From positions 1-64,000 of the forward strand of contig NZ_JAQTMS010000026.1 in assembly GCF_028714215.1 (NCBI RefSeq): DNA of 64,000 nucleotides. Reading direction: 5' to 3'. The notes under the pieces are model-generated. The model did not search any database. It saw nothing but the letters and a program-made list of their open reading frames with translations, and was not told the DNA's origin. This document shows, one piece after another, positions 41,197 to 57,170 of the stretch. Each line of letters starts with the position of its first letter. Within the stretch, counting starts at the first letter, position 1. A program made the translations under genes and the position numbers. This stretch comes from Rhodoferax sp. Its GTDB lineage: Bacteria; Pseudomonadota; Gammaproteobacteria; Burkholderiales; Burkholderiaceae_C.

Positions 41197-41210
41197 GCTG
41201 TGTTACTCCT

Positions 41211-41440
41211 TTACGCCTGCTTTTCGGGCAAGCACTGAAACCACTTTTTCGCCACCGCCTTGAGCCTGGTGAGACCCAACTCGAAGTCCTTGCCGACCAT
41301 TTTGTCCAGGCTATAAAACAGACTCATGACTTTCACGACAAAATTCTGCGTGCCACGTAGAAGGTGTCCGGCAGGGTTGTGGCATGGAGCAGGACGGCGG
41401 CGAGCAGCACGAGCACGGCGATGACGCTGGTTTTAAGCAT
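41211..41440 (-). pseudogene. Internally deleted SRPBCC (polyketide-cyclase-like) gene
   Basis: From an ATG at 41438-41440 the first 35 residues (MLKTSVIAVLVLLAAVLLHA..., ending FYVARRILS) match the membrane-leader N-terminus of SRPBCC/polyketide-cyclase proteins. After a stop at 41333-41335 another frame carries the family C-terminus (VMSLFYSLDKMVGKDFELGL...) to 41211. About 100 central residues are gone and the junction shifts the frame. It lies between the AHSA1 and VOC genes of the operon. I know the family pattern well enough for the call, but the exact junction needs an alignment. Confidence 0.7.
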
Positions 41441-41479
41441 GTGACTTCTCCGGTCCGGGTCATCGCTGACACAACCCGT

Positions 41480-41887: not shown

Positions 41888-41955
41888 GCTGTGACTCCTT
41901 GTGGGATGGCAACTGACTCAATATCAAGCGACTTCTGCGGCGCTGCCCGGCTGGC

Positions 41956-42369: not shown

Positions 42370-42461
42370 GGGAACTCCTTTTTCGGTGGTTACAGGGCTG
42401 GACAAAGTTATCGATCAGAAGAATGATTTTTTGCTTGTGGGTTTAGGTCTGGCTGCCGGCT

Positions 42462-43076
42462 TCAATCGAGCGCAAACGAGCCGGTCTTGAGTTCTCCGGC
42501 ACGTCGATACACACTGACAATGGCGCCCTTGCTGGTGGCGTGCGAGCGCAGCAACTTCAAGGTGGCCGGCACGCTGCCGGCGCCGAACAGCCGCTTGCCG
42601 GTGCCCAGCACAACCGGAAAGGTCAACAGCCGGTACTCATCGATCAGGTCATGCGCCATCAGCGTCTGCGCCAGGCCGCAACTGCCATGCACTTGCACCT
42701 CGCGCGAGAAGCGTTTTTTGAGTTCGCCGACCTGTTTCACGACGTCGCGAACCGGCGAACTGGCACTCCAGTTGAACGTCGTCAGTGTGCGCGAAGCGAC
42801 GAATTTGGGAAGCGAATTCAGCTTGCTGGCAATCGGGTCGTCGGCATCGGTGACCCGCGGCCAATGGCCCGAGAAGATGTCGTAAGTGGTCCGACCGAGC
42901 AGGAAGGCATCCGCCTTCGAGAAGATCTCCACCATGGTCTGGCCCATGTCTTCGTCGGCATGGGGGAACAGCCAGCCACCATAAGGGAAGTTGCCGCTGC
43001 GGTCCTCGCCCGGAGCACCGGGGGCCTGCATCACGCCATCGAGCGTCAGGAATGTCGTCAAAGTCAGTTCAGCCAC
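42462..43076 (-). CDS. RibD_C/DHFR-like reductase, first gene of the VOC operon
   Basis: A 204-residue protein of the dihydrofolate-reductase-like RibD C-terminal family. It starts TTFLTLDGVMQAPGAPGEDR and has FLLGRTTYDIFSGHWP, VHGSCGLAQTLMAHDLIDEYRLL and PVVLGTGKRLF. Members bind NADPH, but the reaction is mostly unknown. I choose the GTG at 43074-43076 because GGAG sits just upstream; an in-frame ATG at 43136 would overlap the operator. The promoter at 43148-43177 has a palindrome in its spacer. A second family member heads the other operon at 55030. Confidence 0.88.
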   Translation of the reverse strand: MAELTLTTFLTLDGVMQAPGAPGEDRSGNFPYGGWLFPHADEDMGQTMVEIFSKADAFLLGRTTYDIFSGHWPRVTDADDPIASKLNSLPKFVASRTLTTFNWSASSPVRDVVKQVGELKKRFSREVQVHGSCGLAQTLMAHDLIDEYRLLTFPVVLGTGKRLFGAGSVPATLKLLRSHATSKGAIVSVYRRAGELKTGSFALD

Positions 43077-43118
43077 AAGTGTCTCCAATTTCCCGTGCAA
43101 GTCGAATTTGATTTCATT

Positions 43119-43135
43119 TGTGTACAGAGTACACA
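43119..43135. promoter_or_regulatory. Palindromic operator, GTGTAC type (site A1)
   Basis: TGTGTAC-AGA-GTACACA, a perfect 7+3+7 palindrome, lies between the DHFR-like gene and the second palindrome at 43155. The same arm recurs at 55733-55751 in front of the TetR-family gene. Confidence 0.7.
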
Positions 43136-43147
43136 TTGAATAAGCGA

Positions 43148-43177
43148 ATAATAATGGACAGTGTCCACAATTGGCAA
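43148..43177 (-). promoter_or_regulatory. Promoter of the DHFR/VOC/SRPBCC operon, spacer filled by an operator
   Basis: On the minus strand TTGCCA (43172-43177) and TATTAT (43148-43153) are 18 bases apart. The 13-base palindrome TGGACAGTGTCCA (43155-43167) lies wholly in the spacer, the classical position for a repressor. Transcripts would start about 60 bases before the GTG at 43076. Confidence 0.6.
43155..43167. promoter_or_regulatory. Palindromic operator TGGACAGTGTCCA (site A2)
   Basis: A perfect 13-base palindrome, identical to the ones at 44671-44683 and 55769-55781. Its centre is 34 bases from the centre of site A1. Confidence 0.75.
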
Positions 43178-43181
43178 TGCC

Positions 43182-43206
43182 ATGACTGCCGTGTCAACAA
43201 TTAGCC
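43182..43206 (+). pseudogene. Stub of a TetR-type gene start
   Basis: The bases from about 43174 on match the start region of the TetR-family gene at 55796: gcaatgcc, then ATGACTGCC and TCAACAAT, encoding MTA-STI. Similarity stops near 43206, just before the end of the XRE-family gene. The frame runs only about 34 codons. It looks like the scar of a deleted paralogue that was once divergent from the DHFR-like gene. Confidence 0.5.
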
Positions 43207-43236
43207 CACGGCACACAGCCGCCGGCCAGACTGAAA

Positions 43237-44079
43237 TCAAGCGCCTTGTGACGACGCCAGCAAGGCCAGCAGCGCTTGCCGGGTGAATTGGTCGGCCGGG
43301 AAGAACGTTTCCAGCGCCAGTTCCTGCAAGGTGACGTCGACCGGTGAACCGAAGATGGTGGTGGTGCTGATGAAGCTGAGCACACCGATCGCGGTCCGGA
43401 ACTTGAAGGGCACCACAATGCCCGCCGGTTCGCCTTCCGGCGCTGAACCGGCGGCCGCGTCGGGCACCGGGTAAGTCATGAGTTCCGCCAGCAGAGCCGC
43501 CAGCAGCGGGTCGGCGGTGGCCCCGATTTGCTGGCGCAGGCGCTCGAACAAGTGGCTGCGCCATTGCGCCAGATTCACGATGTTGCCGGCGATGCCCAGC
43601 GGGTGCAGGCTCAGGCGCAACACGTTGACTGGCGCTTGCAGCAGCGACGCATCGGCTCCGGCCAGCAGCGACGCCAGCATGCGGTTGGCGGCGATCAGAT
43701 TCCAGTGCCGGTCCAGCGCCAGCGCGGGATAGGGCTCGTGGCTGGTCAGCAGCAGTTCCACCGCCTGGCGCGCCGCATCCAGCGCCGGGTCGCCCAGCGG
43801 TCGCTCGCGGTACATCGGCGCGTAGCCGGCCGCCACCAGCAAGGCATTGCGCTCACGCAGCGGAATGTCCAGTCGCGCCGACAGGCGCAACACCATTTCG
43901 CGGCTGGGAAGCGAGCGTCCGGTCTCGACAAAACTGAGGTGCCGGGTCGAGATGTCGGCTTCGTGCGCCAACTCAAGCTGGCTCAGGCGCCGGCGCTGAC
44001 GCCAGTGGCGCAAGTGGTCGCCAAACGGCGGCGCCGTGCCGCGCGACGAACTGCCGAGGTATGGGGTGCTTGCATTCAT
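43237..44079 (-). CDS. XRE-family regulator with MmyB-like ligand domain
   Basis: A 280-residue regulator. Residues about 18-75 form an XRE helix-turn-helix (DHLRHWRQRRRLSQLELAHE, STRHLSFVETGRSLPS). The C-terminal half (about 95-265) is an MmyB-type PAS-like ligand domain, recognisable by LDRHWNLIAANRMLASLLAG and FSFISTTTIFGSPVDVTLQELALE-like text near the end. MmyB regulators often control a neighbouring oxidoreductase or transporter. I start at the ATG 44077-44079. The small membrane-protein gene at 44240 is divergent and is the likely target. Confidence 0.9.
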   Translation of the reverse strand: MNASTPYLGSSSRGTAPPFGDHLRHWRQRRRLSQLELAHEADISTRHLSFVETGRSLPSREMVLRLSARLDIPLRERNALLVAAGYAPMYRERPLGDPALDAARQAVELLLTSHEPYPALALDRHWNLIAANRMLASLLAGADASLLQAPVNVLRLSLHPLGIAGNIVNLAQWRSHLFERLRQQIGATADPLLAALLAELMTYPVPDAAAGSAPEGEPAGIVVPFKFRTAIGVLSFISTTTIFGSPVDVTLQELALETFFPADQFTRQALLALLASSQGA

Positions 44080-44239
44080 GGCGCCATCGTAAAGCCTGGC
44101 CGGCCGGTGTTCCATTACCTGCCAGGTCATCGACTGGCGGCAGCGGCACCGCAATGATGCAGCCCGGCCGCAGCGATCCGATAGCCCGCTGCGCCGACTC
44201 GCTCCCGTTGCCGGCTATCCCAACCCAAGGAGTTTGCTC

Positions 44240-44662
44240 ATGTCTACCACCTCGTTCATGTCTGCCCCCAACTTTTTGCGCAACGTGCTGCGCGCCGATG
44301 CAATGTCGTGCCTGGCCTGCGGCCTGCTGCAGGTCGTCGTCCCCGACACCATGGCCCCATTGACGGGCTTGCCGCCCGCGCTGCTGGTGTACAGCGGCGA
44401 ATTTCTGCTGCTCTACGCCGCGCTGGTGGCCTTTCTCTCCACCCGCGTGCCGCTGCCGCGGCCGCTGGTCTGGCTGCTGCTGGCCGGCAATCTGGGCTGG
44501 GCGCTGGCTTGCCTGCTGCTGCTGGTCAGCGGCAGCGTGGTAGCCACCGCGCTTGGCACGGCGTATCTGCTGGTTCAGGCGCTGACGGTGTGCGTGCTGG
44601 CCGACTTGCAGTTTTTCGGTCTGTGCCGGCAGCGTCAAACCAGCGCCAAGGTGGCCCTATAA
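44240..44662 (+). CDS. Small integral membrane protein, unrecognised
   Basis: A 140-residue protein with four hydrophobic segments (about 20-40, 48-67, 72-93, 97-120) and a short cytoplasmic-like tail (GLCRQRQTSAKVAL). The ATG at 44240 follows AAGGAG. I do not recognise a specific family; the size and topology resemble the many short four-helix proteins found beside regulators. It faces the XRE/MmyB regulator across 160 bases that hold their promoters. A perfect TATAAT at 44658-44663 inside its 3' end may start the downstream efflux transcript. Confidence 0.75.
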   Translation: MSTTSFMSAPNFLRNVLRADAMSCLACGLLQVVVPDTMAPLTGLPPALLVYSGEFLLLYAALVAFLSTRVPLPRPLVWLLLAGNLGWALACLLLLVSGSVVATALGTAYLLVQALTVCVLADLQFFGLCRQRQTSAKVAL

Positions 44663-44670
44663 TTCGCATG

Positions 44671-44683
44671 TGGACAGTGTCCA
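44671..44683. promoter_or_regulatory. Palindromic operator TGGACAGTGTCCA (site B1)
   Basis: Identical to the palindromes at 43155 and 55769. It begins 8 bases after a perfect TATAAT (44658-44663), so a repressor here would cover the transcription start of the RND efflux operon. Confidence 0.75.
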
Positions 44684-44706
44684 TAATCGGTGTTAGCATT
44701 TAATTG

Positions 44707-44719
44707 TGGATGGCGTCCA
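44707..44719. promoter_or_regulatory. Near-palindromic operator TGGATGGCGTCCA (site B2)
   Basis: Same half-sites as B1 with one mismatched pair, extended to GTGGA...TCCAC at 44706-44720. Centre-to-centre distance from B1 is 36 bases, close to the 33-34 bases between paired sites elsewhere. It lies about 90 bases before the outer-membrane factor start. Confidence 0.6.
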
Positions 44720-44813
44720 CATTGAATACTTGTACCCTGAAGCGTTCGACCCTCCGAAGTCAAATTGAAACGCCTGGGTGACGCCTTGCCGCCTCGGTTT
44801 TTAGGGAATTTAC

Positions 44814-46316
44814 ATGCTTGTTGCAGCAGCCCTCAAGGGCTACCGTGTGGTCCGGCGCCGGCCCGTGGCGCGCCATTTTTCCGACCGGCAGCGCCGCTGG
44901 CTGCCGCTGCTGGCGCTGGCGCTGGCGCTTGGCGCCTGCGCCGGCCTGCCGCCTAGCGCCAACCAAACATCGACAGCAGCAAGCTTGACGGCACCGTCGC
45001 AATGGCAGGCGCCACTGCCGCACGGCGGTCAACTGACCGACCTCAGTCACTGGTGGCAACAGTTCAACGACCCGCTGCTGACGCAGCTCATCGACGCCGC
45101 GCAGGCGCTCAGCCCGACGCTGGCGGCGGCGCAGTCGCGCATCGCGCAAGCGCGCGCGGCGCAGGTGGCGGCTGGTGCCGCACTGGGCCCGACCCTGAAC
45201 GCCAGCTTCAGCGCCAGCCGCGGCCGCCAGGACTTGAGCCTGCCGCTGGGCAGCAGCACATCGGCTGGCCTGCAAGCGGCCTGGGAGTTGGACCTGTTCG
45301 GCGGCAACGCCGCCGGCCGTGACGCGGCGCAAGCCCGGCTCTCCGGCGCCCAGGCGTCGTGGCATGAAGCCCGCGTGTCAGTGGCGGCCGAGGTGGCCGG
45401 CGCCTACCTCGCGCTGCGCGCCTGCGAGGCCCAACTGGCGCAAACGCAGCTCGACGCCAGCTCGCGCGCCGAGACCGCGCGCCTGACCGAACTGGCAACC
45501 AGGGCCGGCTTTCAAACCTCTGCCACTGCCGCGCTGGCACGCGCCAGCGCGGCCCAGGGCAGCAGCCTGCTGACCCAACAGCGCGCCCAATGCGACCTTG
45601 GCGTCAAGTCGCTGGTGGCCCTGACCGGCTTGGCCGAGCCTGCTTTGCGCAGCCAACTTGCCGGCGGCAGCGCGCAGTTGCCGCAGCCGGCGCAGATCGC
45701 CGTCAGCAGCGTTCCGGCCGAAGTGCTGGCGCAGCGCCCGGACTTGTTCAACGCCGCGCGCCAGGTGCTGGCCGCCAGCGCCGACCTGAGCCAGTCGCAG
45801 GCGCAACGCTATCCGCGCATTGTTTTGAGCGGCAACATCGCCGCCGCCCGCTTCGCCAGCGCCGCCGGCACGCTGGACGACACGCTGTGGAGCCTGGGTC
45901 CGGTGTCGGTGTCGCTGCCTTTGTTCGACGGCGGCGCGCGCCGCGCCAACGTGGAAGCGGCCCGCGCGCGCTACCGGGAGGCCGGCGCCAACTACGCAGC
46001 CCGGCTGCGCACGGCAGTGCGGGAAGTCGAAGAAGCCTTGATCACGCTGCAAAGCACGGCCGCGCGCAGCGGCGACGCGCAGGTCGCCAGCGCGGGCTTT
46101 GCCGTCTCGTACCGGGCCACCGAGGCGCGCTTCAAGGGCGGCCTGGCCAGCCTGTTCGAACTGGAAGACGCACGCCGCAGCCTGCTGCAGGCGCAGAGTA
46201 CCCTGATCGAATTGCAGCGCGAACGCGTCGCCGCCTGGATCTCCTTGTACCGCGCGCTGGGCGGTGGCTGGACCGCCGAGGCGCCAGCCGCGGCGCAGGC
46301 CGCCAGCCAGGACTGA
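44814..46316 (+). CDS. RND efflux outer-membrane factor, NodT/OprM type lipoprotein
   Basis: A 500-residue TolC-family channel that links an RND pump to the outside. After a basic N-terminus, the hydrophobic LPLLALALALGAC forms a lipobox with Cys42 as the lipidated residue. The two repeats of coiled-coil and beta-strand follow, with HWWQQFNDPLL, the repeated alpha-helical hairpins rich in Ala/Gln, and PLFDGGARRANVEAARARYREA in the second half. The n-region before the lipobox is long, so a later start is possible. It is first in the efflux operon, 30 bases before the adaptor gene. Confidence 0.92.
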   Translation: MLVAAALKGYRVVRRRPVARHFSDRQRRWLPLLALALALGACAGLPPSANQTSTAASLTAPSQWQAPLPHGGQLTDLSHWWQQFNDPLLTQLIDAAQALSPTLAAAQSRIAQARAAQVAAGAALGPTLNASFSASRGRQDLSLPLGSSTSAGLQAAWELDLFGGNAAGRDAAQARLSGAQASWHEARVSVAAEVAGAYLALRACEAQLAQTQLDASSRAETARLTELATRAGFQTSATAALARASAAQGSSLLTQQRAQCDLGVKSLVALTGLAEPALRSQLAGGSAQLPQPAQIAVSSVPAEVLAQRPDLFNAARQVLAASADLSQSQAQRYPRIVLSGNIAAARFASAAGTLDDTLWSLGPVSVSLPLFDGGARRANVEAARARYREAGANYAARLRTAVREVEEALITLQSTAARSGDAQVASAGFAVSYRATEARFKGGLASLFELEDARRSLLQAQSTLIELQRERVAAWISLYRALGGGWTAEAPAAAQAASQD

Positions 46317-46346
46317 CCTTCCCCGAATTTCCTTCCTCATTCAAGC

Positions 46347-47504
46347 ATGTCCATGAAATACCATCTTCAACCCCGCTGGATCGTGCTGGCAGTCGCCTCG
46401 CTGGTGCTGCTGGGCCTGGCCTCGTTGGCCCTCACCGATCGCACGCCCGAGGCCAAGAAGCCCGCCGCCCAGGTCAAACCGGCACTCACGGTCAACCTCA
46501 CCGAGCCGCAGAGGACGACGCTGCCAATGAAAATCGAAGCCAACGGCAACCTGGCGGCCTGGCAGGAAGCCAGCATAGGCACCGAGGCCAACGGCCTGCG
46601 GCTGGCCGAGGTGCGCGTCAACGTCGGCGACCAGGTCGAGCGCGGCCAGGTGCTGGCCACTTTCGCGCCCGACATGATTCTGGCCGACCTGGCCCAGATG
46701 CGCGCCAACCTGGCGCAGGAAGAAGCCACCTTGGCGGAGGCCGCCGCCAACGCCCAGCGAGCCCGCGAATTGCAGACTACCGGCGCCCTCAGCGCGCAGC
46801 AGATCAACCAGTACCTGACCGCCGAACGCACCGCGCAAGCGCGCGTCGAGGCGCAGCGCGCGATCGCCAGAACGCAGCAACTGCGACTGGCGCAAACCCA
46901 GGTGCTGGCGCCCGACAGGGGCGTGATCTCGGCCCGCAGCGCCACCGTGGGCGCGGTGCTACCGGCCGGGCAGGAGTTGTTCCGCATGATTCGCCAGGGC
47001 CGGCTGGAATGGCGGGCCGAGGTCTCTTCGGCCGATCTGGCCTACCTCAAACCCGGCATGAGCGCCAGCGTCACGCCGGCCAACGGGACGCGCATCAAGG
47101 GCACGCTGCGCATGGTGGCGCCAACGGTCGATGCCGCCACCCGCATGGGCCTGGTCTACGTCGACCTGCCGGCGCACGGCGCGGCCAAGGCCGGCATGTT
47201 TGCGCGCGGCGAGTTCGAGACCGGCAGCGGCGTGGCGCTGACGCTGCCGCAGAGCGCGGTGCTGCTGCGCGACGGCTTCAGCTATGTGCTGCGCGTGGGT
47301 GCCGATTCCAAGGTCGCCCTGACGAAAGTCGCGGTCGGGCGGCGCGCCGGCGAGCGCATCGAGATCACCGGCGGACTCGACGCCAAGGCGCGTGTCGTTG
47401 CCGCCGGCGGCGGCTTTCTGTCGGATGGCGACACGGTTCGGGTGGTCGAATCGGCGCCGGCACCGAAGAGCGCGGCCAGCGCCAGTGGCGCGCAGGCGAG
47501 GTGA
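46347..47504 (+). CDS. RND efflux periplasmic adaptor (HlyD/AcrA family)
   Basis: A 385-residue membrane-fusion protein anchored by one N-terminal segment (IVLAVASLVLLGLASLAL). The lipoyl half-motif EANGLRLAEVRVNVGDQVERGQVLATF and its partner in LAQTQVLAPDRGVISARSAT flank an alpha-helical hairpin. Beta-barrel and membrane-proximal domains follow. It joins the pump at 47512 to the outer-membrane factor at 44814, and the three genes are close together (30 and 7 bases). A second in-frame ATG lies two codons later. Confidence 0.93.
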   Translation: MSMKYHLQPRWIVLAVASLVLLGLASLALTDRTPEAKKPAAQVKPALTVNLTEPQRTTLPMKIEANGNLAAWQEASIGTEANGLRLAEVRVNVGDQVERGQVLATFAPDMILADLAQMRANLAQEEATLAEAAANAQRARELQTTGALSAQQINQYLTAERTAQARVEAQRAIARTQQLRLAQTQVLAPDRGVISARSATVGAVLPAGQELFRMIRQGRLEWRAEVSSADLAYLKPGMSASVTPANGTRIKGTLRMVAPTVDAATRMGLVYVDLPAHGAAKAGMFARGEFETGSGVALTLPQSAVLLRDGFSYVLRVGADSKVALTKVAVGRRAGERIEITGGLDAKARVVAAGGGFLSDGDTVRVVESAPAPKSAASASGAQAR

Positions 47505-47511
47505 GCGGGCC

Positions 47512-50500
47512 ATGGCAATAAACGTTTCCGCCTGGTCGATCCGCAAACCGGTACCCTCGGTGCTGCTCTTCATCATGCTCACGCTGGTGGGTTTGATGAG
47601 TTTTCGCGCCATGAAGATCCAGCAGTTTCCCGACATCGATCTGCCGATGGTGATCGTCAGCGCGTCGCTGCCGGGCGCCGCCCCGGCGCAGATGGAAACC
47701 GAGGTGGCGCGCAAGATCGAGAACTCGCTGGCCAGCATACAGGGCTTGAAGCACATCTACACCAAGGTGCAGGACGGCATGGCCACCGTGACGGCCGAGT
47801 TCCGCCTCGAGAAACCGACCCAGGAGGCGATGGACGACGTGCGCGACGCGGTGCAGCGCATCCGCTCCGACCTGCCGGCCGAGCTGCGCGACCCGGCCAT
47901 CAGCAAGATGGATTTTGCCGGCATGCCGGTGCTGACCTACACCGTGTCGTCGTCGCGCATGGACGACGAGGCGCTGTCCTGGTTTGTCGACAACCAGGTC
48001 AGCAAGGCGCTGCTGGCGGTGCGCGGCGTCGGCGCCGTCGGGCGCGTCGGCGGCGTGCAGCGCGAGGTCCGCATCGAGCTCGACCCGGCGCGCCTGTTTG
48101 CGCTCAACGCCACCGCGGCGGAGATCTCGCGGCGCCTGCGCGAGGTCCAGCAGGACGCCTCCGGCGGCCGCACCGACCTGGGCGGCGGCGAGCAATCGGT
48201 GCGCACCATCGCCACCGTGCATTCGGCGCAGGAGCTGGGCGCGCTGGAGCTGACCCTGGGTGACGGCCGGCGCATCCGCCTGAACCAGGTCGCCAGCGTC
48301 AGCGACACGGTGGCCGAGCAGCGCGCCACGGCCTTGCTGAACGGCCAAGCGGTGGTCGGTTTCGAGATCACGCGTTCGCGCGGCGCCAGCGAGGTGGAGG
48401 TTGCCAAGGGCGTGCACGCCGCGCTCGATACGCTCAAAGCCCAGCACCCGGACGTGACGATCACCGAGGCCTTCAACTTCGTCGACCCGGTGATCGAGAA
48501 CTACAACGGCTCGCTGGCGCTGATGCTCGAAGGCGCGATCCTGGCGGTGATCGTGGTCTGGCTGTTCCTGCGCGAGTGGCGTGCCACCTTCATCTCGGCG
48601 GTGGCACTGCCGCTGTCCATCATCCCGACTTTCGCGGCCATGCACTGGATGGGTTTCAGCGTCAACGTCATCACGCTGCTGTCGCTGTCGCTGGTGGTGG
48701 GCATCCTGGTTGATGATGCGATCGTCGAGATCGAGAACATCATGCGCCACCTCAGCCAGGGCAAGTCGCCGTTCCAGGCGGCACTGGAGGCGGCCGACGA
48801 GATCGGGCTGGCGGTGATCGCGACCACCTTCACGCTGATCGCGGTGTTTCTGCCGACCGCCTTCATGGACGGCGTGGCCGGCAAGTTTTTTGTGCAGTTC
48901 GGCTGGACCGCCGCGATCGCGGTCTTCTTCTCGCTGGCGGTGGCGCGCATGCTGACGCCCATGATGGCCGCCTACATCCTGCGTGCGCCGAAGAAGCCGC
49001 ACGTGGAGCCGCGCTGGCTGAAGGGGTATCTGCGCCTGGCCGCCTGGTGCCTGAAGCACCGCCTCTGGACGCTGCTGGCCACCGTGCTGTTCGCGCTGGG
49101 CTCCTGCACGCCCCTGTTCGTCGGCAAGATCGCCGGCGGCTTCATCCCGCCCGACGATTTGTCGCAGACCCAGGTCTACATTTCGCTGCCGCCCGGCAGC
49201 ACCTTCGGGCAGACGCTGGCGGTGGCCGAGCAGGCGCGCCAGATCGTGCAGAAGAACCCTCATGTGAAGATGGTCTACACCGCGGTGGGCGGCGGCAAGG
49301 CCGGTGCCGACCCATTCCTGTCGAGCGGCGCGGCCGAGGTGCGCAAGGCCACCTTGACGATCAACCTGACGCCGCGCGCCGAACGCCCCGGCGTCAGCAA
49401 GCAGGCGATCGAAGGCGATTTGCGCCGCGCCCTGGAAGCCGTGGCCGGAGCGCGCCTGAACGTCGGTTTCGGCGGCTCGTCGGAGAAATTCATGCTGGTG
49501 CTGGCCGGTGTCGATGGCGAGGCACTGAACGCCCACGCCGCGCTGGTGGAGCAGGAGTTGCGCGGCCTTCCCGGCATCGGCGCGGTGACCTCCACCGCCA
49601 GCCTGCAGCGCCCCGAACTGGTGGTGCGGCCGGACAACGCCCGCGCCGCCGACCTGGGCGTGACCTCGGCGGCGATTGCCGACACCTTGCGCATCGCCAC
49701 CACCGGCGACTACGACCAGGGCCTGGCCAAGCTCAACTTCTCGCAACGCCAGATCCCGGTGGTGGTGCGCCTGCCCGACGCCGCCCGGCAAGACCTGCGC
49801 TTGCTGGAGCGGCTGGCGGTTCCCGGTGCCCGCGGACCGGTGGCGCTGGGCAACGTGGCAACGCTGGCGATGGACAGCGGACCGGCGCAGATCGACCGCT
49901 ACGACCGGCTGCGCAACGTCAATTTCGAGATCGAGCTCAATGGCCAGCCGCTCGGCAAGGTACAGGCCGAGGCGGATGCGCTGCCCAGCCTGGCCAAGCT
50001 GCCCAGCGGCATCAGCAAGACCGCGGTCGGTGACGCCGAGGCGATGGGCGAGTTGTTCGCCAGCTTCGGCCTGGCCATGGCCACCGGCGTGCTGTGCATC
50101 TACATCGTGCTGGTGCTGCTGTTCCACGCCTGGGTGCAGCCGGTCACCATCCTGGTGGCGCTGGCGCTGTCGATCCCGGGCGCCATCCTGGCCCTCTTCA
50201 TCACCCGCACCGACCTGACCATGCCGTCCATGATCGGCATGATCATGCTGATGGGCATCGCCACCAAGAACTCCATCCTGCTGGTCGAGTACGCGATCAT
50301 GGCGCGCCGCGAGCACGGCCTGAACCGCTGGGACGCCCTGCTGGACGCCTGCCGCAAGCGCGCCCGCCCGATCGTCATGACCACCATCGCCATGGGCGCC
50401 GGCATGCTGCCCATTGCCATCGGCTTCGGCACCGACCCGAGCTTTCGCGCGCCGATGGCGATCGTGGTGATCGGCGGTCTGATCACCTCCACCTTCCTCA

Positions 50501-50625
50501 GCCTGCTGGTGATCCCGGTGGTGTTCACTTTCGTCGACGATCTGGTGCAAAGCCTGAGCCGGCGCTTCCGGCCTGAGGCCGTGGCGCCAGCGCCGGCAGC
50601 ACCGGCAGCGGCCGACGCACATTGA
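47512..50625 (+). CDS. RND efflux pump, HAE-1 type inner-membrane transporter
   Basis: A 1037-residue proton-driven exporter with 12 membrane helices and two large periplasmic loops. The TM4 relay motif is VDDAIVEIENI, with the two Asp used for proton transfer, and the TM10 region has ATKNSILLVEYA with the Lys partner. The N-terminal WSIRKPVPSVLLFIMLTLVGLMSF and FPDIDLPMV blocks are typical. Real start is the ATG at 47512, 7 bases after the adaptor stop. Substrate range cannot be told from sequence; drugs or solvents are usual. Operators upstream suggest TetR-type repression. Confidence 0.95.
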   Translation: MAINVSAWSIRKPVPSVLLFIMLTLVGLMSFRAMKIQQFPDIDLPMVIVSASLPGAAPAQMETEVARKIENSLASIQGLKHIYTKVQDGMATVTAEFRLEKPTQEAMDDVRDAVQRIRSDLPAELRDPAISKMDFAGMPVLTYTVSSSRMDDEALSWFVDNQVSKALLAVRGVGAVGRVGGVQREVRIELDPARLFALNATAAEISRRLREVQQDASGGRTDLGGGEQSVRTIATVHSAQELGALELTLGDGRRIRLNQVASVSDTVAEQRATALLNGQAVVGFEITRSRGASEVEVAKGVHAALDTLKAQHPDVTITEAFNFVDPVIENYNGSLALMLEGAILAVIVVWLFLREWRATFISAVALPLSIIPTFAAMHWMGFSVNVITLLSLSLVVGILVDDAIVEIENIMRHLSQGKSPFQAALEAADEIGLAVIATTFTLIAVFLPTAFMDGVAGKFFVQFGWTAAIAVFFSLAVARMLTPMMAAYILRAPKKPHVEPRWLKGYLRLAAWCLKHRLWTLLATVLFALGSCTPLFVGKIAGGFIPPDDLSQTQVYISLPPGSTFGQTLAVAEQARQIVQKNPHVKMVYTAVGGGKAGADPFLSSGAAEVRKATLTINLTPRAERPGVSKQAIEGDLRRALEAVAGARLNVGFGGSSEKFMLVLAGVDGEALNAHAALVEQELRGLPGIGAVTSTASLQRPELVVRPDNARAADLGVTSAAIADTLRIATTGDYDQGLAKLNFSQRQIPVVVRLPDAARQDLRLLERLAVPGARGPVALGNVATLAMDSGPAQIDRYDRLRNVNFEIELNGQPLGKVQAEADALPSLAKLPSGISKTAVGDAEAMGELFASFGLAMATGVLCIYIVLVLLFHAWVQPVTILVALALSIPGAILALFITRTDLTMPSMIGMIMLMGIATKNSILLVEYAIMARREHGLNRWDALLDACRKRARPIVMTTIAMGAGMLPIAIGFGTDPSFRAPMAIVVIGGLITSTFLSLLVIPVVFTFVDDLVQSLSRRFRPEAVAPAPAAPAAADAH

Positions 50626-50645
50626 AAAGTCAGGAGCCACGCAAC

Positions 50646-51068
50646 ATGAAATCTCTGCACCTGCTACCGGTCACCCTCCTCAGCCTGTCGGCGGTTTCCT
50701 GTGGCGGGGGCGGCGACGCGCCAACTCCGCCGGGCACGGTCAGCTTCGTCATGCGGCTGCACGGGTTTCCCGGCAGCGAGGAGTTTCGTGTGGCAACCGC
50801 CTCGGCCGACTTCATCGCCAAGGCCCGGGCGCAACTGCTGCTGCCCGAAGCGCAGCGCAGCCTCTTTGTCAACGGCGCCATCGCCGCCGGCAGTGCCGGT
50901 GTGAACACCGGCTGGAGCTGGCATTTCTCGGACGCCGCTCTGGTGGAGTCGGCGATCGAGCTGTGCGATGGCCGGCCCAGCATGGTTGAAGCCAACCAGG
51001 ACTACTGGCTCAACACGGTCAAGCGCTTCTGCCCCTGGCCATCCTACGTCTACGCCGAGGCCACTTGA
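50646..51068 (+). CDS. BP74-like lipoprotein
   Basis: A 140-residue predicted lipoprotein. Signal MKSLHLLPVTLLSLSAVSC places the lipidated Cys at residue 19, followed by a Gly-rich spacer. The rest matches the N-terminal domain of BP74-type calmodulin-binding proteins: FVMRLHGFPGSEEFRVATAS, then A..INGAI-like segments, WSWHF.DAALVE.AIELCD and a final FCPWPSYVYAE. Such domains are short secreted or lipid-anchored modules whose bacterial role is unknown. It lies 20 bases after the RND pump and is probably the fourth gene of the efflux operon. Confidence 0.7.
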   Translation: MKSLHLLPVTLLSLSAVSCGGGGDAPTPPGTVSFVMRLHGFPGSEEFRVATASADFIAKARAQLLLPEAQRSLFVNGAIAAGSAGVNTGWSWHFSDAALVESAIELCDGRPSMVEANQDYWLNTVKRFCPWPSYVYAEAT

Positions 51069-51078
51069 GCGAGCCAGC

Positions 51079-52005
51079 TCACGAGGGCGCCTTGGCTTTG
51101 ACGCGCTGTTCGACAAACTGCACCAGAAGCTGATTGAACCTGGCCGGCTGGTCGTAGAACACGGCGTGGCCGGCGCCTTCGACGACGGCGCTGCTGGCCA
51201 GCGGAATCGCCTGCTGCAACTGTTCGCTTCGGTCCTCCGCGGTGCCGGCCACCACCAGCAGGGTAGGCACTTCGATGCGCCGCAGCGCCGGCCGGTAGTC
51301 CTTGCCCATGAAATCGAGCACCAGATTGGCCACGCCCACGCTGCTGGGGGTTCGCATGGCATTGCCGACGATCGTGTCGAGTTCAGCGGGCGACAGCGGT
51401 TGGCTGAAGATGTACGGCATCATGGCCTCCAGGTACTCGCGCGGATTAGCTGCATAGAAGGGCATCCGTCCCAGGCTTGAGCGCAGCTCCCGGATGTCGA
51501 CGTCGGCGGCGCCGGCCGACACCGTGGCATCGACCAGCACCAGGCCAGCGACTTCCGCGGTACCGAACGCCAGCGCGTAGGCGGCCACGTCCTGCACGCC
51601 TTGCGACCAGCCGACCAGCACCGGCTTGTGCAAATGCAGCGTCTTGATCAGGTTGGCGATGTCGACGGCCCGATGGTCCGGGCTGTTCGAGTGATCCAGT
51701 TGGGTCGAGCCGCCTTGTGAGCGCGGATCGAACGCCACCACGTGGTAGCGCTCGCTCAAGGCGGTGATCTGCTTGCGCCAGATGTCCGCCGTGAAGCACC
51801 AGCCGGGGACCAACAGGATGACCTGGGCGTCCTTTGGGCCGGCCTCGATCACGCGCAGCTTGATGTCCGCCGAGACGGCCACCAGCCGGTCGGAAATTGC
51901 TTGCTCCGAGTGCGCCATCGAAGGCGCCCACAGTGCGCACCCCAGCAACAGGGCCAGGGTCCACGCCTTCGCCAACAGCATCGGTCTTTGGTTCGTCACC
52001 ATCAT
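51079..52005 (-). CDS. Exported alpha/beta hydrolase
   Basis: A 308-residue alpha/beta-hydrolase-fold protein with a signal peptide (LLAKAWTLALLLGCALWAPSMAHS). The nucleophile elbow is GWSQG (Ser), the oxyanion region is LLVPGWCFTADIW, and the catalytic His is in GAGHAVFYD. It belongs to the broad haloperoxidase/esterase-like group; the substrate is unknown. GGAGGAG stands just before the ATG at 52003-52005. It converges with the BP74-like gene, 10 bases apart, so it is not part of the efflux transcript. Confidence 0.88.
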   Translation of the reverse strand: MMVTNQRPMLLAKAWTLALLLGCALWAPSMAHSEQAISDRLVAVSADIKLRVIEAGPKDAQVILLVPGWCFTADIWRKQITALSERYHVVAFDPRSQGGSTQLDHSNSPDHRAVDIANLIKTLHLHKPVLVGWSQGVQDVAAYALAFGTAEVAGLVLVDATVSAGAADVDIRELRSSLGRMPFYAANPREYLEAMMPYIFSQPLSPAELDTIVGNAMRTPSSVGVANLVLDFMGKDYRPALRRIEVPTLLVVAGTAEDRSEQLQQAIPLASSAVVEGAGHAVFYDQPARFNQLLVQFVEQRVKAKAPS

Positions 52006-52127
52006 GATTTGCTCCTCCAGGGGCTGTTCACTCTACCTTAAGAAATCCCTAAGACTCAACTGGGAAGATGCCGGCACTGGGGGCATGGGCTCTGCCCAAA
52101 TTGTCAGCTAATCGGTATTTTCCAAAA

Positions 52128-52505
52128 ATGTTTTCCCTTGTTTCCCGTTTCACGACCAGTCTGATGGGCCTTATCGGCGAATCGGCATCGAGCGCAGAAG
52201 TTGAAATTCGGGTCGAGGAAATCCGCCGGGAAATGCTGGCCATCATGTCGGAACTCCCGGATCAGCAGGGCGCACGATCGGCGCCCTGGACCCGGGTCTG
52301 GGCCAAGGTATCGCGGGCCGCCAACATCCAGACACTTTGGTATTTGCGCATTGATCTGATGGCGCTGCTGTCAGCGCATTGTGGCGAACATGTGGCGCGC
52401 GACAAGTTGGCCGCCATCACCAAAATGTTTCGTGGTGTGTTGCCACCCGCTCAGATGGCAAGACCAGACCGCCGTCGCCAGTCAAAACTGAGGCCTCTTG
52501 AATAG
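52128..52505 (+). CDS. Small unrecognised protein
   Basis: A 125-residue soluble protein, mostly helical, with an acidic stretch (EVEIRVEEIRREMLAIMSELP) and a basic C-terminus (RPDRRRQSKLRPLE). No signal peptide or known motif is seen. The ATG at 52128 is one of several possible starts (another in frame at 52068). It lies alone on the plus strand between two minus-strand genes. Codon use looks like the neighbours. I cannot assign a function. Confidence 0.55.
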   Translation: MFSLVSRFTTSLMGLIGESASSAEVEIRVEEIRREMLAIMSELPDQQGARSAPWTRVWAKVSRAANIQTLWYLRIDLMALLSAHCGEHVARDKLAAITKMFRGVLPPAQMARPDRRRQSKLRPLE

Positions 52506-52511
52506 GCGGGA

Positions 52512-52904
52512 TCACGCCAGTTCAACCTTCATTTTCCGGTCTTTCTTCCGTGAGTTTTCCTGCACGCGAAACGCAACGATTTTCTTGATCAGTTTCAGCG
52601 GCAGTGGCCGGTCGATGGGAAACTGAATGGCACCTTTGGAGGTTTTGTAGATTCTTAACTCGTGCTGGAATGGGGCGATCCCACTCGGTGTGGGATAGAG
52701 TCCTATGTGTCGCTCGAAGGCAGCGAAATGCACAAGATTGCCTTTGAAGTAAAGGGTTGGCATTTGATAGCTTATTTTCTCGATGGCCTCGGGTGCCGCC
52801 AGGCTGATGGCTGATCGCAGTTCCTGCAAGATGGCTTGCACAGCTTCGGGAAACCCCTGGATGTATTGGTCGATTGACGCGATTTTTTCGGCTGGCGTTT
52901 TCAT
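52512..52904 (-). CDS. DUF1801 (YdhG-like) protein
   Basis: A 130-residue protein of the DUF1801/YdhG family. The typical IDQYIQGFPEAVQAILQELRSAI, EKISYQMPTLYFKGNLVHFAAF and HIGLYPTPSGI are present. Some relatives, such as Fra in Bacillus, act as frataxin-like iron chaperones, but most are untested. Start ATG at 52902-52904 after CAGGAG. It follows the membrane-protein gene by 14 bases and ends the DHFR-led operon starting at 55626. Confidence 0.88.
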   Translation of the reverse strand: MKTPAEKIASIDQYIQGFPEAVQAILQELRSAISLAAPEAIEKISYQMPTLYFKGNLVHFAAFERHIGLYPTPSGIAPFQHELRIYKTSKGAIQFPIDRPLPLKLIKKIVAFRVQENSRKKDRKMKVELA

Positions 52905-52918
52905 GTTCGGCTCCTGGT

Positions 52919-53809
52919 TCATGAAAGTTTCGCGGGCTCATGGCGCAGCGTCAGCAGCCAGCCGACCAGGCAACCAAAAATGAAATTGGAGGAGGCGGTT
53001 TCCCTCAGGTGGGCCATGCGTACTGCTTCAGGCATGTAGGGGTTGGGTAGCAGAAGCTGGGCACTCATCAGCACGGCGAACAGCAAGCCGACCATCAGGG
53101 CGGTCTCCGGCCAGCGCCCTTTCGTCATGCGCACCACCGGCAAGGCGATCGCCACCCACAACAGGGCGCGCAGGATCTGGAACGGGATCAGCCAAAAGGT
53201 GTCTGTCAGCACGACGCTCATGCGGGCGAGGAAGCTGCCTTCGTCGACACCGCCGTAATACGCCGGCACCGCAGGGTTTCGCCAGGCAATGAAATAGCCA
53301 AAAGTGAAATACACAATGAGGTAAGCCAAAGCCAGTGCCGCCAGCCGCCAGGCCCATTGCGGCGCGGGCATGAGCAAGCGCGGATTGAGTTCCTGGTCGT
53401 CGTCGGCTTCGGCTTTCCTCTTTCCCAGTACGAGAACGGCAAGCGCCGAGAAGGGGGCAGCAATCAGGGCACCCATCAGAAACAAGCGCGGCAACATGCC
53501 CGCTGGCAGACGCGTGACAAACACGGCCGTCTCGATTTGCGACATGAACGTCATCACGCCATAAAAGACAAAAAACACGGTCGCAACAAGCCGCCAGCCG
53601 GCCCAGCGGGAGCGAAGAACAAGATATGTCAAAACCAGCGTGCATAAAAAGCAGTCCGCCAGCAGCAGCCCGGCCGCCGGTGCGCCGGAATTTTCAGGCG
53701 CCGGAGCATTGCCCTGCAAGCCCACTGCGCTGGCTGCCACGGCAAAGCAGATGAAGAGAATCGCCGTCAGGGCGGCGACTTTGAGCACGATGAAAATAGT
53801 CGTCTTCAT
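52919..53809 (-). CDS. Polytopic membrane protein, unrecognised
   Basis: A 296-residue protein with about seven hydrophobic segments: the first near 8-28, others near 46-66, 75-95, 105-127, 155-172, 208-230 and 235-255. The cytoplasmic loop has a KRKAEADDD patch. No transporter or enzyme signature is recognised. The start ATG at 53807-53809 gives a signal-anchor-like first helix. It lies between the beta-lactamase-fold gene and the DUF1801 gene and is probably part of the same operon. Confidence 0.8.
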   Translation of the reverse strand: MKTTIFIVLKVAALTAILFICFAVAASAVGLQGNAPAPENSGAPAAGLLLADCFLCTLVLTYLVLRSRWAGWRLVATVFFVFYGVMTFMSQIETAVFVTRLPAGMLPRLFLMGALIAAPFSALAVLVLGKRKAEADDDQELNPRLLMPAPQWAWRLAALALAYLIVYFTFGYFIAWRNPAVPAYYGGVDEGSFLARMSVVLTDTFWLIPFQILRALLWVAIALPVVRMTKGRWPETALMVGLLFAVLMSAQLLLPNPYMPEAVRMAHLRETASSNFIFGCLVGWLLTLRHEPAKLS

Positions 53810-53824
53810 GTCTTTCTTCGCCCA

Positions 53825-55033
53825 TCAGGCTTCCAGCGAACGGTACGCATGGGTCCAGAAATCCTTGAACACCGCCGGCGGTTCCGGTGAATCCATCAAG
53901 CGTTGCGTCAACAGGATGCCGACGAAGTCGTGCGTCGGGTCCGAGTAGGCGGAAGTGCCGAAACCGCCGTCCCAGCCGAAGCGGCCCGGCACGGTCCATG
54001 GCTGCTCCGGGTGGATGTTGACTGCCATGCCAAAACCCCAACTGCTGTGATTGCCGAAGAATATCTGCGCGCCTCGTCGCTGTTCAGGCGTGAGTTGATC
54101 GCGGGTCATCGCTTCGATGGCGGCCTTGGATAGGAGTCGCTCGCGACCCCAGACACCTTTGTTCAAGAGCAGGCGGCAGAAGGCGTGGTAGTCGTCGACC
54201 GTTGATACCAGTCCACCGGCGCCCGATTGGAAGGCTGGCGGGCGACTGTATTCGCTGTTCTGCGAACTGTCGAACAGTTCCAGTTTTTTGCTATCGTGAT
54301 TGAACTGATAGAGGCCCGGCAGTCGATCCATCTTTGACGCCGGAACGCTGAACGCCGTGTCCTTCATACCCAGCGGATCGAACAGCCGCTCGCGCAGGAA
54401 GGCTTCGAAGGATTTCCCGGCAACACGGGCCAGCAAAACGCCCAGTACGTCGCAGCCCGTGTTGTAGGCCCAACGCTCGCCCGGCTGGTACATCAGCGGC
54501 AGCTCGCCCAATCGGCGCATCCATTCATCCGTGCCAGGCATCAGCGACGGATGTGGTGGGCCATCACCGCCCAGATGCCCGTCACGGATCGGTTGCTGAA
54601 TGGGACAGCTTCCCGGCAGCGCCATGACACTGCCGAAGCCGAAGCAAAACGTCAGCAGGTCGCGCAGTGCGATTGGGCGCTGGGCGGGAACCGTGTCGTC
54701 GAGTTGCGCGTCAATGCGCCTGAGCACCTTGCGCTTGGCCAACTCAGGCAGCCAGCGTTCAACGGCATCGTCAAGCCGTAGTTTGCCGTCGTCGACCAGC
54801 ATCATGGTGGCGGCCGCGGTGATCGGCTTGGTAATCGACGCAACCCGGAAGATGGTGTCGCGGCGCATTGGATCTTTTCCATCAACCGTCTTCATACCGA
54901 TCGCATCGACGTGAATTTCGTTGCCACAACTTAGCAGCGTGACGATGCCGGGAATAGCGCCGTGTTCGACGTAGCCCATCATCGCGCGGCGCAGATCCGC
55001 GAGGCGCGTCCTGTTGAGTTTGTTTGTAGTCAT
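53825..55033 (-). CDS. Beta-lactamase-family serine hydrolase
   Basis: A 402-residue penicillin-binding-protein-like hydrolase (class C beta-lactamase/esterase EstB group). The catalytic SxxK is SITK in FRVASITKPITAA; the Tyr motif is in GERWAYNTGCDVLG; a third box is seen near WGFGMAVN or FGWDGGFGTSAY. There is no signal peptide, so cytoplasmic esterase or peptidase activity is more likely than true beta-lactamase. Its first codon overlaps the DHFR-like gene stop by four bases (55030-55033), making the two coupled. Confidence 0.9.
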   Translation of the reverse strand: MTTNKLNRTRLADLRRAMMGYVEHGAIPGIVTLLSCGNEIHVDAIGMKTVDGKDPMRRDTIFRVASITKPITAAATMMLVDDGKLRLDDAVERWLPELAKRKVLRRIDAQLDDTVPAQRPIALRDLLTFCFGFGSVMALPGSCPIQQPIRDGHLGGDGPPHPSLMPGTDEWMRRLGELPLMYQPGERWAYNTGCDVLGVLLARVAGKSFEAFLRERLFDPLGMKDTAFSVPASKMDRLPGLYQFNHDSKKLELFDSSQNSEYSRPPAFQSGAGGLVSTVDDYHAFCRLLLNKGVWGRERLLSKAAIEAMTRDQLTPEQRRGAQIFFGNHSSWGFGMAVNIHPEQPWTVPGRFGWDGGFGTSAYSDPTHDFVGILLTQRLMDSPEPPAVFKDFWTHAYRSLEA

Positions 55034-55626
55034 TTCCCGAGCGACCGATACCGGTTGACGACGATGCCGCAGCTATAGGAAGTTGATTCGAGCAACTTGA
55101 GCTTCAGGCCTTCGCGCGGATTGTTGAAAATCGACAATCCATCCCCGACCGCAGTCGGATTCACGAAAAATTGAAACTCGTCGACCAATCCAGCCGCGAC
55201 CAAGGCCGACGCGAAGCCGACGCCGCCAAAAGTGATGATGTTCCTGCCAGGTCGACGCTTCAGCGCCTTCACTTCCCTGATCATGCCGCCGTCAGCCACC
55301 ACCGTGCGGTCCCACTTCGATTTCTGGAGCTTGTCGGTAACCACGATCTTGTTTGCATCGACTATTTTTCGGGCAAAAGCGTAGTGCGGGTTGGCAGGAA
55401 AATTGGCGGCAGCCCGGCCCCAGTGCTCAAGGTAGCCTTCTTCCGCCATCTTGCGGCTTAACAGAATGCTGTCGATCGAATCGAAAATGACATTGAAGTC
55501 GCTCTTGAGTTGCTGGTCCCATGGGCATGGGTCGTTCCAGTTCCAGACCTGCCAATCGAGATCGGGATTGGCAGCGGCGACGTAGCCGTCGACCGACATC
55601 TGCATTTGCAATATCAGTTTTCTCAC
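55030..55626 (-). CDS. RibD_C/DHFR-like reductase, first gene of the second operon
   Basis: A 198-residue dihydrofolate-reductase-like protein. It begins KLILQMQMSVDGYVAA, continues with DSILLSRKMAEEGYLEHWG and the NADPH-site GGVGFASALVAAGLVDEF. It is a distant paralogue of the protein at 42462. It faces the TetR-family gene, and both share a promoter region with two palindromes, so the regulator very probably controls it. The next gene begins in a 4-base overlap. Function unknown. Confidence 0.88.
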   Translation of the reverse strand: MRKLILQMQMSVDGYVAAANPDLDWQVWNWNDPCPWDQQLKSDFNVIFDSIDSILLSRKMAEEGYLEHWGRAAANFPANPHYAFARKIVDANKIVVTDKLQKSKWDRTVVADGGMIREVKALKRRPGRNIITFGGVGFASALVAAGLVDEFQFFVNPTAVGDGLSIFNNPREGLKLKLLESTSYSCGIVVNRYRSLGK

Positions 55627-55727
55627 GCTCTTTTCTCCAATGTCTGATTACCAACCTGTACCTTTCCAACCGGCCGGTGCATGCCGTTTGCGCAGCAACC
55701 CGACTTGGCGGCATCGAGGGAATACGC

Positions 55728-55757
55728 TTGAATTGTGTACGCCGTACACAATAGAAT
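55728..55757 (+). promoter_or_regulatory. Promoter of the TetR-family gene with operator in the spacer
   Basis: TTGAAT (55728-55733) and TAGAAT (55752-55757) are 18 bases apart. The 19-base palindrome TTGTGTACGCCGTACACAA (55733-55751) fills the spacer. This points to autoregulation of the TetR-family gene. Confidence 0.6.
55733..55751. promoter_or_regulatory. Palindromic operator, GTGTAC type (site C1)
   Basis: Perfect 8+3+8 palindrome (arms TTGTGTAC/GTACACAA, spacer GCC). The same arm is found at 43119-43135. Confidence 0.75.
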
Positions 55758-55768
55758 AGCAGGGATAA

Positions 55769-55781
55769 TGGACAGTGTCCA
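55769..55781. promoter_or_regulatory. Palindromic operator TGGACAGTGTCCA (site C2)
   Basis: Perfect 13-base palindrome identical to those at 43155 and 44671. On the minus strand it lies between TTGCGG (55786-55791) and TATCCC (55762-55767), an 18-base spacer, in the promoter of the DHFR-like gene at 55030-55626. Confidence 0.75.
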
Positions 55782-55795
55782 CAACCCGCAATGCC

Positions 55796-56446
55796 ATGAC
55801 TGCCAGATCAACAATAACGCCGCCGGTGCGCAGCACCTACCGTCACGGCGACCTGCATCGTGCATTGCTGGAGGCCGGCATCGAGCTGGCGCGCCAAGGT
55901 GGTCCCGAGGCTGTTGTGCTGCGTGAAGCAACGCGGCGCGCCGGCGTGGCGCCCAACGCCGCCTACCGCCACTTCGCCAGCCGGGAAGCGCTGCTGCAGG
56001 CGGTGCGCGCGGCCTCCCTGCAGGCCGTGGCGGCGGCGATGGAGGCCGAGCTGGCGACCCTGCCGCGCAAGCTGTCGCCAGCCGACTTCGCCCGCGCCAG
56101 CGTGCGCGCGGTGGGCACTGGCTACCTGCGCTTTGCCCTGGCCGAGACCGGTTTGTTCCGCACTGCTTTTGCCGCTTCCGACAAACTGCTGCAAGGCACG
56201 CCCGAGCTGTCCACCGCCGGCGCCAGCGGCCTGAACCCTTTCGAGCTACTGGGCGCCGCCCTGGACAAGCTGGTCGAGGCCGGGGTGATGCCGGCCAAGC
56301 GCCGCCCCGGCGCCGAATTTCTGGCCTGGTCGGCGGTGCACGGGCTGGCCATGCTGGTGGTCGACGGCCCGCTGCGCAACGTCATCGGCCCGCAGATGCA
56401 GCAGGTCGGGCAACGGCTGCTGGACATGGTGGAGAAGGGTTTGTAA
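55796..56446 (+). CDS. TetR/AcrR-family transcriptional regulator
   Basis: A 216-residue TetR-family repressor. The N-terminal helix-turn-helix spans about residues 17-60 (DLHRALLEAGIELARQG; VLREATRRAGVAPNAAYRHFASREALLQAV). The C-terminal ligand domain resembles the WHG/TetR_C group (YLRFALAETGLFRTAF; LAWSAVHGLAMLVVDGPL). The ATG at 55796 lies 14 bases past operator C2. Matching palindromes in front of the RND efflux operon and the other DHFR-led operon make it the candidate regulator of all four transcripts. The ligand is unknown. A racemase gene follows 13 bases later. Confidence 0.92.
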   Translation: MTARSTITPPVRSTYRHGDLHRALLEAGIELARQGGPEAVVLREATRRAGVAPNAAYRHFASREALLQAVRAASLQAVAAAMEAELATLPRKLSPADFARASVRAVGTGYLRFALAETGLFRTAFAASDKLLQGTPELSTAGASGLNPFELLGAALDKLVEAGVMPAKRRPGAEFLAWSAVHGLAMLVVDGPLRNVIGPQMQQVGQRLLDMVEKGL

Positions 56447-56459
56447 CGGGCCTCCTGCC

Positions 56460-57170
56460 ATGCCGCAACACATCGGAATTGTGGGCTGCTCCGCCGAAGG
56501 CGCGGCGCTCTGTTATCGAACCCTCTGCCTCGAAGGCGCGCAGTTGCTGGGCCGACACGCGCATCCCGAGATCTCGCTGCACACGCACTCGCTGGCCGAC
56601 TACGTCGACTGCCTGGACCGCAACGACTGGCCGGGCGTGGCCCAGCTTATGCTGTCCTCCGCCCACAAGCTGGCCAACAGCGGCGCCGACTTTCTGATCT
56701 GTCCCGACAACACCATCCACCAGGCTTTTGCCTGCCTTGAAAACCGCTCTCCGCTGCCTTGGCTGCACATCGCCGAGGTCGTCGCCAGCGAGGCCGCGCA
56801 ACGCGGCTTTCAGCGCCTGGGCCTTAGCGGCACGCGCTGGCTGGTGGAGAGCGAGGTCTATCCCGAAAAACTGAGCGCCCGTGGACTGGCGTATCTGCGC
56901 CCGACCGAGGTCGAGCGCTGCGAGATCAACCGCATCATCATGGACGAGCTGGTGTGCGGTGTCGTCCGGCCGCAAAGCGTGGCCTATTTTCAGAAGGTCT
57001 TCGCAGGCATGAAAGACCAGGGCTGCGACGCCGTCATCCTGGGCTGCACCGAAATTCCCTTGCTCATGAACGACGCGAATTCCGCGCTGCCGACACTGGA
57101 CTCGACACGGCTGCTGGCGCGCGCGGCGTTGCGGCGGGCAGTGGCCAGCGAGCGCCCTTGCGATCACTGA
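56460..57170 (+). CDS. Aspartate/glutamate racemase-family protein
   Basis: A 236-residue protein of the Asp/Glu racemase fold, two alpha/beta domains each normally giving one catalytic cysteine. The second site is intact (ILGCTEIPLL). The first reads CPDNTIH (Cys81, Asp83): the Cys that usually stands directly before Asn-Thr is replaced by Asp, and Cys81 lies two residues earlier. It may therefore be a one-Cys racemase variant or act on another substrate. The ATG at 56460 lies 13 bases after the TetR-family gene, so it is probably co-transcribed with it. Confidence 0.85.
   Translation: MPQHIGIVGCSAEGAALCYRTLCLEGAQLLGRHAHPEISLHTHSLADYVDCLDRNDWPGVAQLMLSSAHKLANSGADFLICPDNTIHQAFACLENRSPLPWLHIAEVVASEAAQRGFQRLGLSGTRWLVESEVYPEKLSARGLAYLRPTEVERCEINRIIMDELVCGVVRPQSVAYFQKVFAGMKDQGCDAVILGCTEIPLLMNDANSALPTLDSTRLLARAALRRAVASERPCDH

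Follow-up and report, generated by a model that had tools for sequence, protein, structure and literature searches.

The question raised by this stretch of Rhodoferax sp. DNA (contig NZ_JAQTMS010000026.1, positions 1 to 64,000, hereafter the window) is why the gene for a TetR-family regulator (tetR), two operons led by DHFR genes, and an RND efflux operon should carry the same palindrome in their control regions. Our answer is that an autoregulated repressor, the tetR product, probably controls all three regions through paired operators, a reading to which we give a probability of about 0.82. Coordinates of the features are collected in Table 1.

A paired operator in three control regions

The 13-mer TGGACAGTGTCCA lies at positions 43155, 44671, and 55769, and TGGATGGCGTCCA at 44707 differs from it by three mismatches; the window search thus bore out the three identical copies and one near match of the original prediction. 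In the whole genome (5,164,643 bases) these three are the only exact copies, all within 13 kb, against none in a read-backward control, and the 13-mer is therefore not scattered at random. The other palindrome, TTGTGTAC-N3-GTACACAA, is exact at 55733, as had been proposed (0.06 occurrences are expected per window), but the copy placed at 43119 in fact begins at 43118 and has one mismatch. Nor are the two palindromes distinct, as originally supposed: a single motif covers them, and relatives carry now one form, now the other, which rules out two separate elements. They are variants of a single site with the 13-bp core TGkAC-N3-GTmCA and the extended operator form TTGTGkACnnnGTmCACAA.

The six sites of the window form three pairs, with start-to-start distances of 34, 36, and 33 nt, within the predicted 33-36. 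Pattern scans of the same genome found the extended site only at 43119 and 55734, and exact core sites no more than 40 nt apart only in the window pairs 43121/43155 and 55736/55769. Five other places in the genome were fetched, and no wider regulon was seen in them: two have single sites without a partner (L173, L174), and at the three one-mismatch places (L175-L177) there was no exact core site.

Conservation beside tetR orthologues

Eighty loci with tetR orthologues (61-84% protein identity; neighbor-gene counts below use 81 loci) were fetched from genera that include Polaromonas, Rhodoferax, Variovorax, Acidovorax, Cupriavidus, and Pandoraea. An exact core, TGKACNNNGTMCA, lies no more than 300 nt upstream of the tblastn match in 72 of the 80; the gene thus has a conserved palindromic operator in its own control region, one of the features of an autoregulated local TetR repressor. 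Forty-six loci have two exact sites upstream, spaced by 32 (19 loci), 33 (23), 34 (2), 40 (1), or 43 nt (1), i.e., 32-34 nt in 44 of the 46. Elsewhere in the same loci (1.43 Mb) only one further exact site was found, and among loci of more distant TetR proteins, the core occurs anywhere in just 1 of 28. When one mismatch was allowed at some positions, 53 pairs (25 at 32 nt and 28 at 33 nt) aligned as one module, inner spacer included, which reads roughly TTGTGTACACCGTCCACAA-aagAATAGCAaAGATAA-TGGACrcTGTCCACAT.

A 19-position matrix was built from 102 unique 19-mers, on both strands, taken from relatives' sites only and excluding those of the window. Its six highest scores over the window fall on the six sites (Table 1) and the seventh is 7.9; the maxima were 17.6 in 10 mononucleotide shuffles and 14.1 in 20 dinucleotide shuffles. 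Among the 1,429,110 positions of the 80 loci that are not part of the region upstream of tetR, none scored 20 or more. This comparative footprinting, together with the same site at VOC, MFS, and DUF1428 genes of relatives (below), strongly supports the originally predicted TetR regulon.

The site before other genes

A scan of 30 relatives' genomes with TGTACNNNGTMCA gave further sites among the matches listed. In 28 stretches of relatives' DNA, seven sites are extended second sites (L146, L147, L149, L151, L159, L160, and L169), six stretches contain tetR itself (L161, L163, L164, L168, L170, and L171), 13 sites are non-extended and, by eye, apparently coding, and were set aside (L145, L148, L150, L152-L158, L162, L165, and L166), and L167 and L172 were left out of these classes. 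The extended sites precede MFS and DUF1428 genes in Polaromonas A23 and AER18D-145 (L146 and L147, where the partner sites have two and one mismatches, respectively), DUF1428 in CF318 (L151), and an MFS gene in Pigmentiphaga (L160); we take these MFS proteins to be of the DHA2 type. In Candidimonas, a PhnB gene is preceded by a second exact pair (L169:3031-3076), and the stretch fetched there yielded no tetR, a layout that parallels the window copy at 43119. An extended-form site also stands before an uncharacterized 118-amino acid open reading frame (ORF) of Pigmentiphaga (L159:3031-3043).

Counting one locus per genome, the extended pattern was found in 26 of 399 genomes of the family: 14 beside a tetR orthologue, six beside DUF1428, VOC, or PhnB-MFS genes without tetR in the locus, and one in the genome under study. 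Paired operators precede a VOC gene in five loci with no tetR match nearby at a tblastn E of 0.001 (L197, L198, L210, L212, and L213), where the repressor would thus have to act from elsewhere. In Pandoraea, tetR has ABC-transporter genes in its vicinity, for which no separate operator was shown. A VOC enzyme plus an efflux pump is, as judged from these predicted targets, the recurrent content, the pump being of the MFS type in relatives and RND in the window.

Several observations weigh against a regulon under this repressor. The core is not enriched genome-wide (21 sites against 63 in the read-backward control), the 13-mer with up to two mismatches gave 65/56 matches against 50/52 in the control, and the extended pattern, present in 26 of the 399 genomes, was found in 21 in the control. 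No regulon gene appears in five of the 26 first loci, and an exact site within 300 nt is lacking from eight of the 80 orthologue loci (most of these have one-mismatch sites, but L056 has none). One half-site of the second RND site, at 44707, is altered. Activation, too, is known among TetR proteins. Because the core alone is no commoner than chance, what carries the claim is the exact 13-mer, together with the extended form, the close pairing, and conservation; and because the control nearly equals the family-wide count of the extended pattern, that count proves little, whereas location does.

The TetR-family regulator

The coding sequence (55796-56443) matches PF00440 (TetR_N, E 3.2e-10) and PF13305 (TetR_C_33, E 1.3e-14), both above cut-off. 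Among the named TetR subfamilies of NCBIfam, none reached its cut-off (the best, KstR, scored 27.7 bits against 280), and the NemR model was not in the match list at E 0.001; the Pfam scan found no CecR_C domain. An AlphaFold2 model from 20 sequences (predicted local distance difference test, pLDDT, 84.8; predicted TM-score, pTM, 0.81) has the all-helical TetR fold, and its Foldseek matches are TetR structures, none of which points to a ligand. Twelve residues in the recognition-helix region are invariant between the window protein and 19 orthologues (T46, R47, G50, V51, P53, N54, A55, A56, Y57, R58, H59, and F60), as expected if the operator is fixed. The protein is the likely regulator of the sites. 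Titles and opening lines of abstracts revealed no study of this TetR family or regulon.

It is improbable that some other regulator binds the sites, e.g., the XRE/MmyB-like protein or a TetR paralogue. The XRE gene adjoins two of the copies, and a homologue lies near such a site in two Polaromonas-type loci (L189 and L205), yet only one of the 81 tetR loci has an XRE homologue while 72 of 80 have the sites; the near absence of the core from loci of other TetR proteins likewise speaks against a paralogue.

Promoters and proposed control

The promoter hexamers are consensus matches. The tetR promoter (TTGAAT-18-TAGAAT, 55728-55757) encloses the GTGTAC palindrome, and DHFR1 has TTGCCA-18-TATTAT at 43177-43148 with the 13-mer in its spacer, both as first proposed. 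The DHFR2 promoter had been placed at 55762-55791, again with the 13-mer in the spacer; the scan instead gives TGGACA-17-TATTCT at 55781-55753, where the 13-mer supplies the -35. The operator serves likewise as the -35 of the RND promoter (TGGACA-17-TAGCAT, 44671-44699).

Steric repression would be the natural reading of these overlaps. A repressor dimer would bind the 13-bp core, and about three turns of the helix separate the two operators of a pair. Of those at tetR, one lies in the tetR promoter spacer and the other coincides with the -35 of the enzyme promoter that faces the opposite way; repressor bound there should shut both directions. The intergenic module is present three times: between tetR and DHFR2, before the DHFR1-PhnB genes with a stub of tetR, and ahead of the RND operon in an inverted, diverged form. 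A single repressor could then keep the RibD_C proteins, VOC proteins, hydrolases, and RND pump switched off, all to be released jointly when it binds a ligand. That ligand is probably a toxic small molecule; an inducer of the drug or stress type, as originally suggested, may be supposed.

Copied control regions and the block between two of them

Positions 43113-43219 align with 55728-55834 at a score of 106, against a maximum of 38 in 300 shuffles, with 51 nt at 88% identity. With the operators masked, a local score of 51 remains between the direct copies, mostly over the start of tetR (this value has no shuffle baseline). The RND region, reverse-complemented, scored 56 against the tetR region (maximum of 500 shuffles, 37), although its homology beyond the operators is less certain because the shared operators add to that score; in the forward orientation the scores, 31 and 33, barely exceeded those of the best shuffles (30 and 31).

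Could the repeats then reflect recent duplication and rearrangement without regulatory meaning? Since 43113-43219 is plainly copied from 55728-55834, two of the three 13-mers are explained without selection. Nevertheless, different genera retain these paired sites at the protein identities given above, and the sites precede other genes in relatives; we consider duplication without function very improbable.

The usual order in relatives is tkt and gapA upstream, followed by PhnB(-), the operators, and tetR(+). The window keeps this order, with 43220-55727 lying between the two direct copies. In the fetched flanks of the 81 loci, where many contigs end early, gapA was found 22 times, a PhnB homologue 58, the racemase three, and a homologue of 62887-63519 eight times. 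No homologue of DHFR1, DHFR2, the serine hydrolase, the outer membrane protein, the alpha/beta hydrolase, the 296-amino acid protein, or DUF1801 was found above thresholds in these 81 loci; of the block genes, only the XRE and 140-amino acid protein genes recurred, in a single locus (L114). Both the integration of DNA with its own operator region and a tandem duplication followed by loss of one tetR would fit the origin of the block.

A related arrangement occurs in the same genus (G025:C93; L114:9161-9559), where PhnB and one core site, TGGACGATGTACA, adjoin a tetR with an internal in-frame deletion; tblastn covers its residues 1-37 and 138-216. With respect to tetR, the XRE (MmyB-like) and 140-amino acid pair of L114 is oriented oppositely to that of the window.

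The RND operon

Homologues of the RND outer membrane protein (57-74% identity) were matched in 152 of 299 genomes, and 29 loci were fetched from these besides our own. No exact site lies near the gene in any of the 29; farther off, L137 has an exact site about 1.2 kb upstream, and L144 has a weak relaxed match some 210 nt before the matched segment begins. The idea that the RND operon is an old target is thus unsupported, and the window pump looks rewired, a newcomer. Ten of ten chosen upstream ORFs were TetR_N plus CecR_C proteins, but they were picked for TetR-like tails and so give no frequency, and five of the 29 loci lack an ORF of 150 amino acids there. In the window, the gene upstream of the RND operon encodes a 140-amino acid protein without a Pfam hit.

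These data bear on whether the TetR protein controls only itself and the enzyme operons, the RND sites being a relic of rearrangement and the pump being run otherwise. The lack of exact sites near the 29 homologues, the CecR-type neighbors, the altered half-site at 44707, and a spacing of 36, outside the usual 32-34, would all fit such a relic. However, 44671 has the highest score of the six sites, 44707 still scores 21.7, and the operator lies on the RND promoter -35 just as at DHFR2; we judge a relic unlikely, and the RND pump appears to have been put under this repressor by operator copies. Within the regulon, the RND arm nonetheless carries the greatest uncertainty and also the greatest interest.

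A complete bidirectional tetR control region may be a copyable cassette: two direct copies flanking a 12.5-kb block would be the outcome of one event, and the RND operon would have been taken over by a third copy, in inverted orientation. We hold this view tentatively, at slightly under even odds. RND homologues often stand behind a CecR-type regulator, and the same operators appear to control MFS pumps in other lineages. If true, one repressor family would have brought efflux pumps of different classes under its control through copies of its promoter, and the locus offers a chance to test such a change of regulator in an RND pump. The regulon itself would be of an ordinary kind, but a widespread TetR family gains a precise predicted operator and a predicted regulon of VOC enzymes and an efflux pump, with a site conserved enough, given location, to read the regulon in other genomes with little noise.

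Neighboring genes

The XRE and 140-amino acid protein genes (43240-44659) sit between two operator copies; in L189 and L205, from relatives, such genes have an operator core and a DUF1428 gene close by. Directly past the VOC genes behind DHFR1, 38859-40213 encodes a DUF6157 protein and an AraC-type regulator whose binding domain is GyrI-like, and a small BP74_N-domain protein (50622-51068) lies directly 3' of the RND pump gene.

Table 1. Operators, genes, and copied segments in the window.
Feature	Position	Strand	Remarks
Operator A	55736-55748		TGTACGCCGTACA; extended TTGTGTACGCCGTACACAA, 55733-55751; tetR promoter spacer; matrix score 28.4
Operator B	55769-55781		TGGACAGTGTCCA; -35 of DHFR2 promoter and tetR leader; matrix score 29.1
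Operator A copy	43121-43133		TGTACAGAGTACA; matrix score 23.3
Operator B copy	43155-43167		TGGACAGTGTCCA; DHFR1 promoter spacer; matrix score 29.1
Operator B-type	44671-44683		TGGACAGTGTCCA; -35 of RND promoter; matrix score 29.8, highest of six
Operator A-type	44707-44719		TGGATGGCGTCCA; one half-site altered; matrix score 21.7, lowest of six
TetR-family regulator	55796-56446	+	TetR_N and TetR_C_33; proposed repressor of all sites
Asp/Glu racemase-family gene	56460-57170	+	13 nt 3' of tetR
DHFR2, RibD_C protein	55030-55626	-	divergent from tetR
Beta-lactamase-family hydrolase, 296-amino acid protein without Pfam hit, DUF1801	52512-55033	-	behind DHFR2; predicted operon limits
DHFR1, RibD_C protein	42462-43136	-	listed ORF start inside operator A; GTG at 43076 the likelier start
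PhnB-like VOC, AHSA1-type, PhnB-like, glyoxalase-type	40256-42405	-	behind DHFR1; predicted operon limits
XRE/MmyB-like protein	43240-44079
RND efflux operon	44814-50625	+	outer membrane protein, adaptor, AcrB-type pump
Direct copy of 55728-55834	43113-43219	+	both operators, ATG (43183), about ten tetR codons (stub)
Stretch with diverged inverted copy	44640-44760	-	ahead of RND operon; alignment to tetR region
Block between direct copies	43220-55727		about 12.5 kb; flank comparison with relatives

Comparison with known systems

The closest structure both by sequence (E 2.8e-08) and by fold (TM 0.71) is 3on2 from Rhodococcus, of uncharacterized function, at about 25% identity. Rv0078/EthR2 of Mycobacterium tuberculosis, whose DNA complex is 6c31, ranked only 37th, with a TM of 0.62 to the model and 22% identity. 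NemR, with nemA-gloA, is a TetR regulator beside a glyoxalase-superfamily gene and in this resembles the window layout. The CecR-type proteins (PF09209) directly upstream of the RND-operon homologues in relatives share TetR_N with the window protein but have CecR_C where it has TetR_C_33. TtgR, AcrR, and RamR are local TetR-family efflux repressors; the operator, the VOC targets, and the copied module are, to our knowledge, not theirs, and identity between local efflux repressors and the window protein was 14-20% in the fold-search rows, where RamR and TtgR are among the Foldseek matches to the model. What TtgR, AcrR, and RamR share with the window protein is the TetR fold, an operator in the repressor's own control region, and a pump among the targets, which for the window is our proposal.

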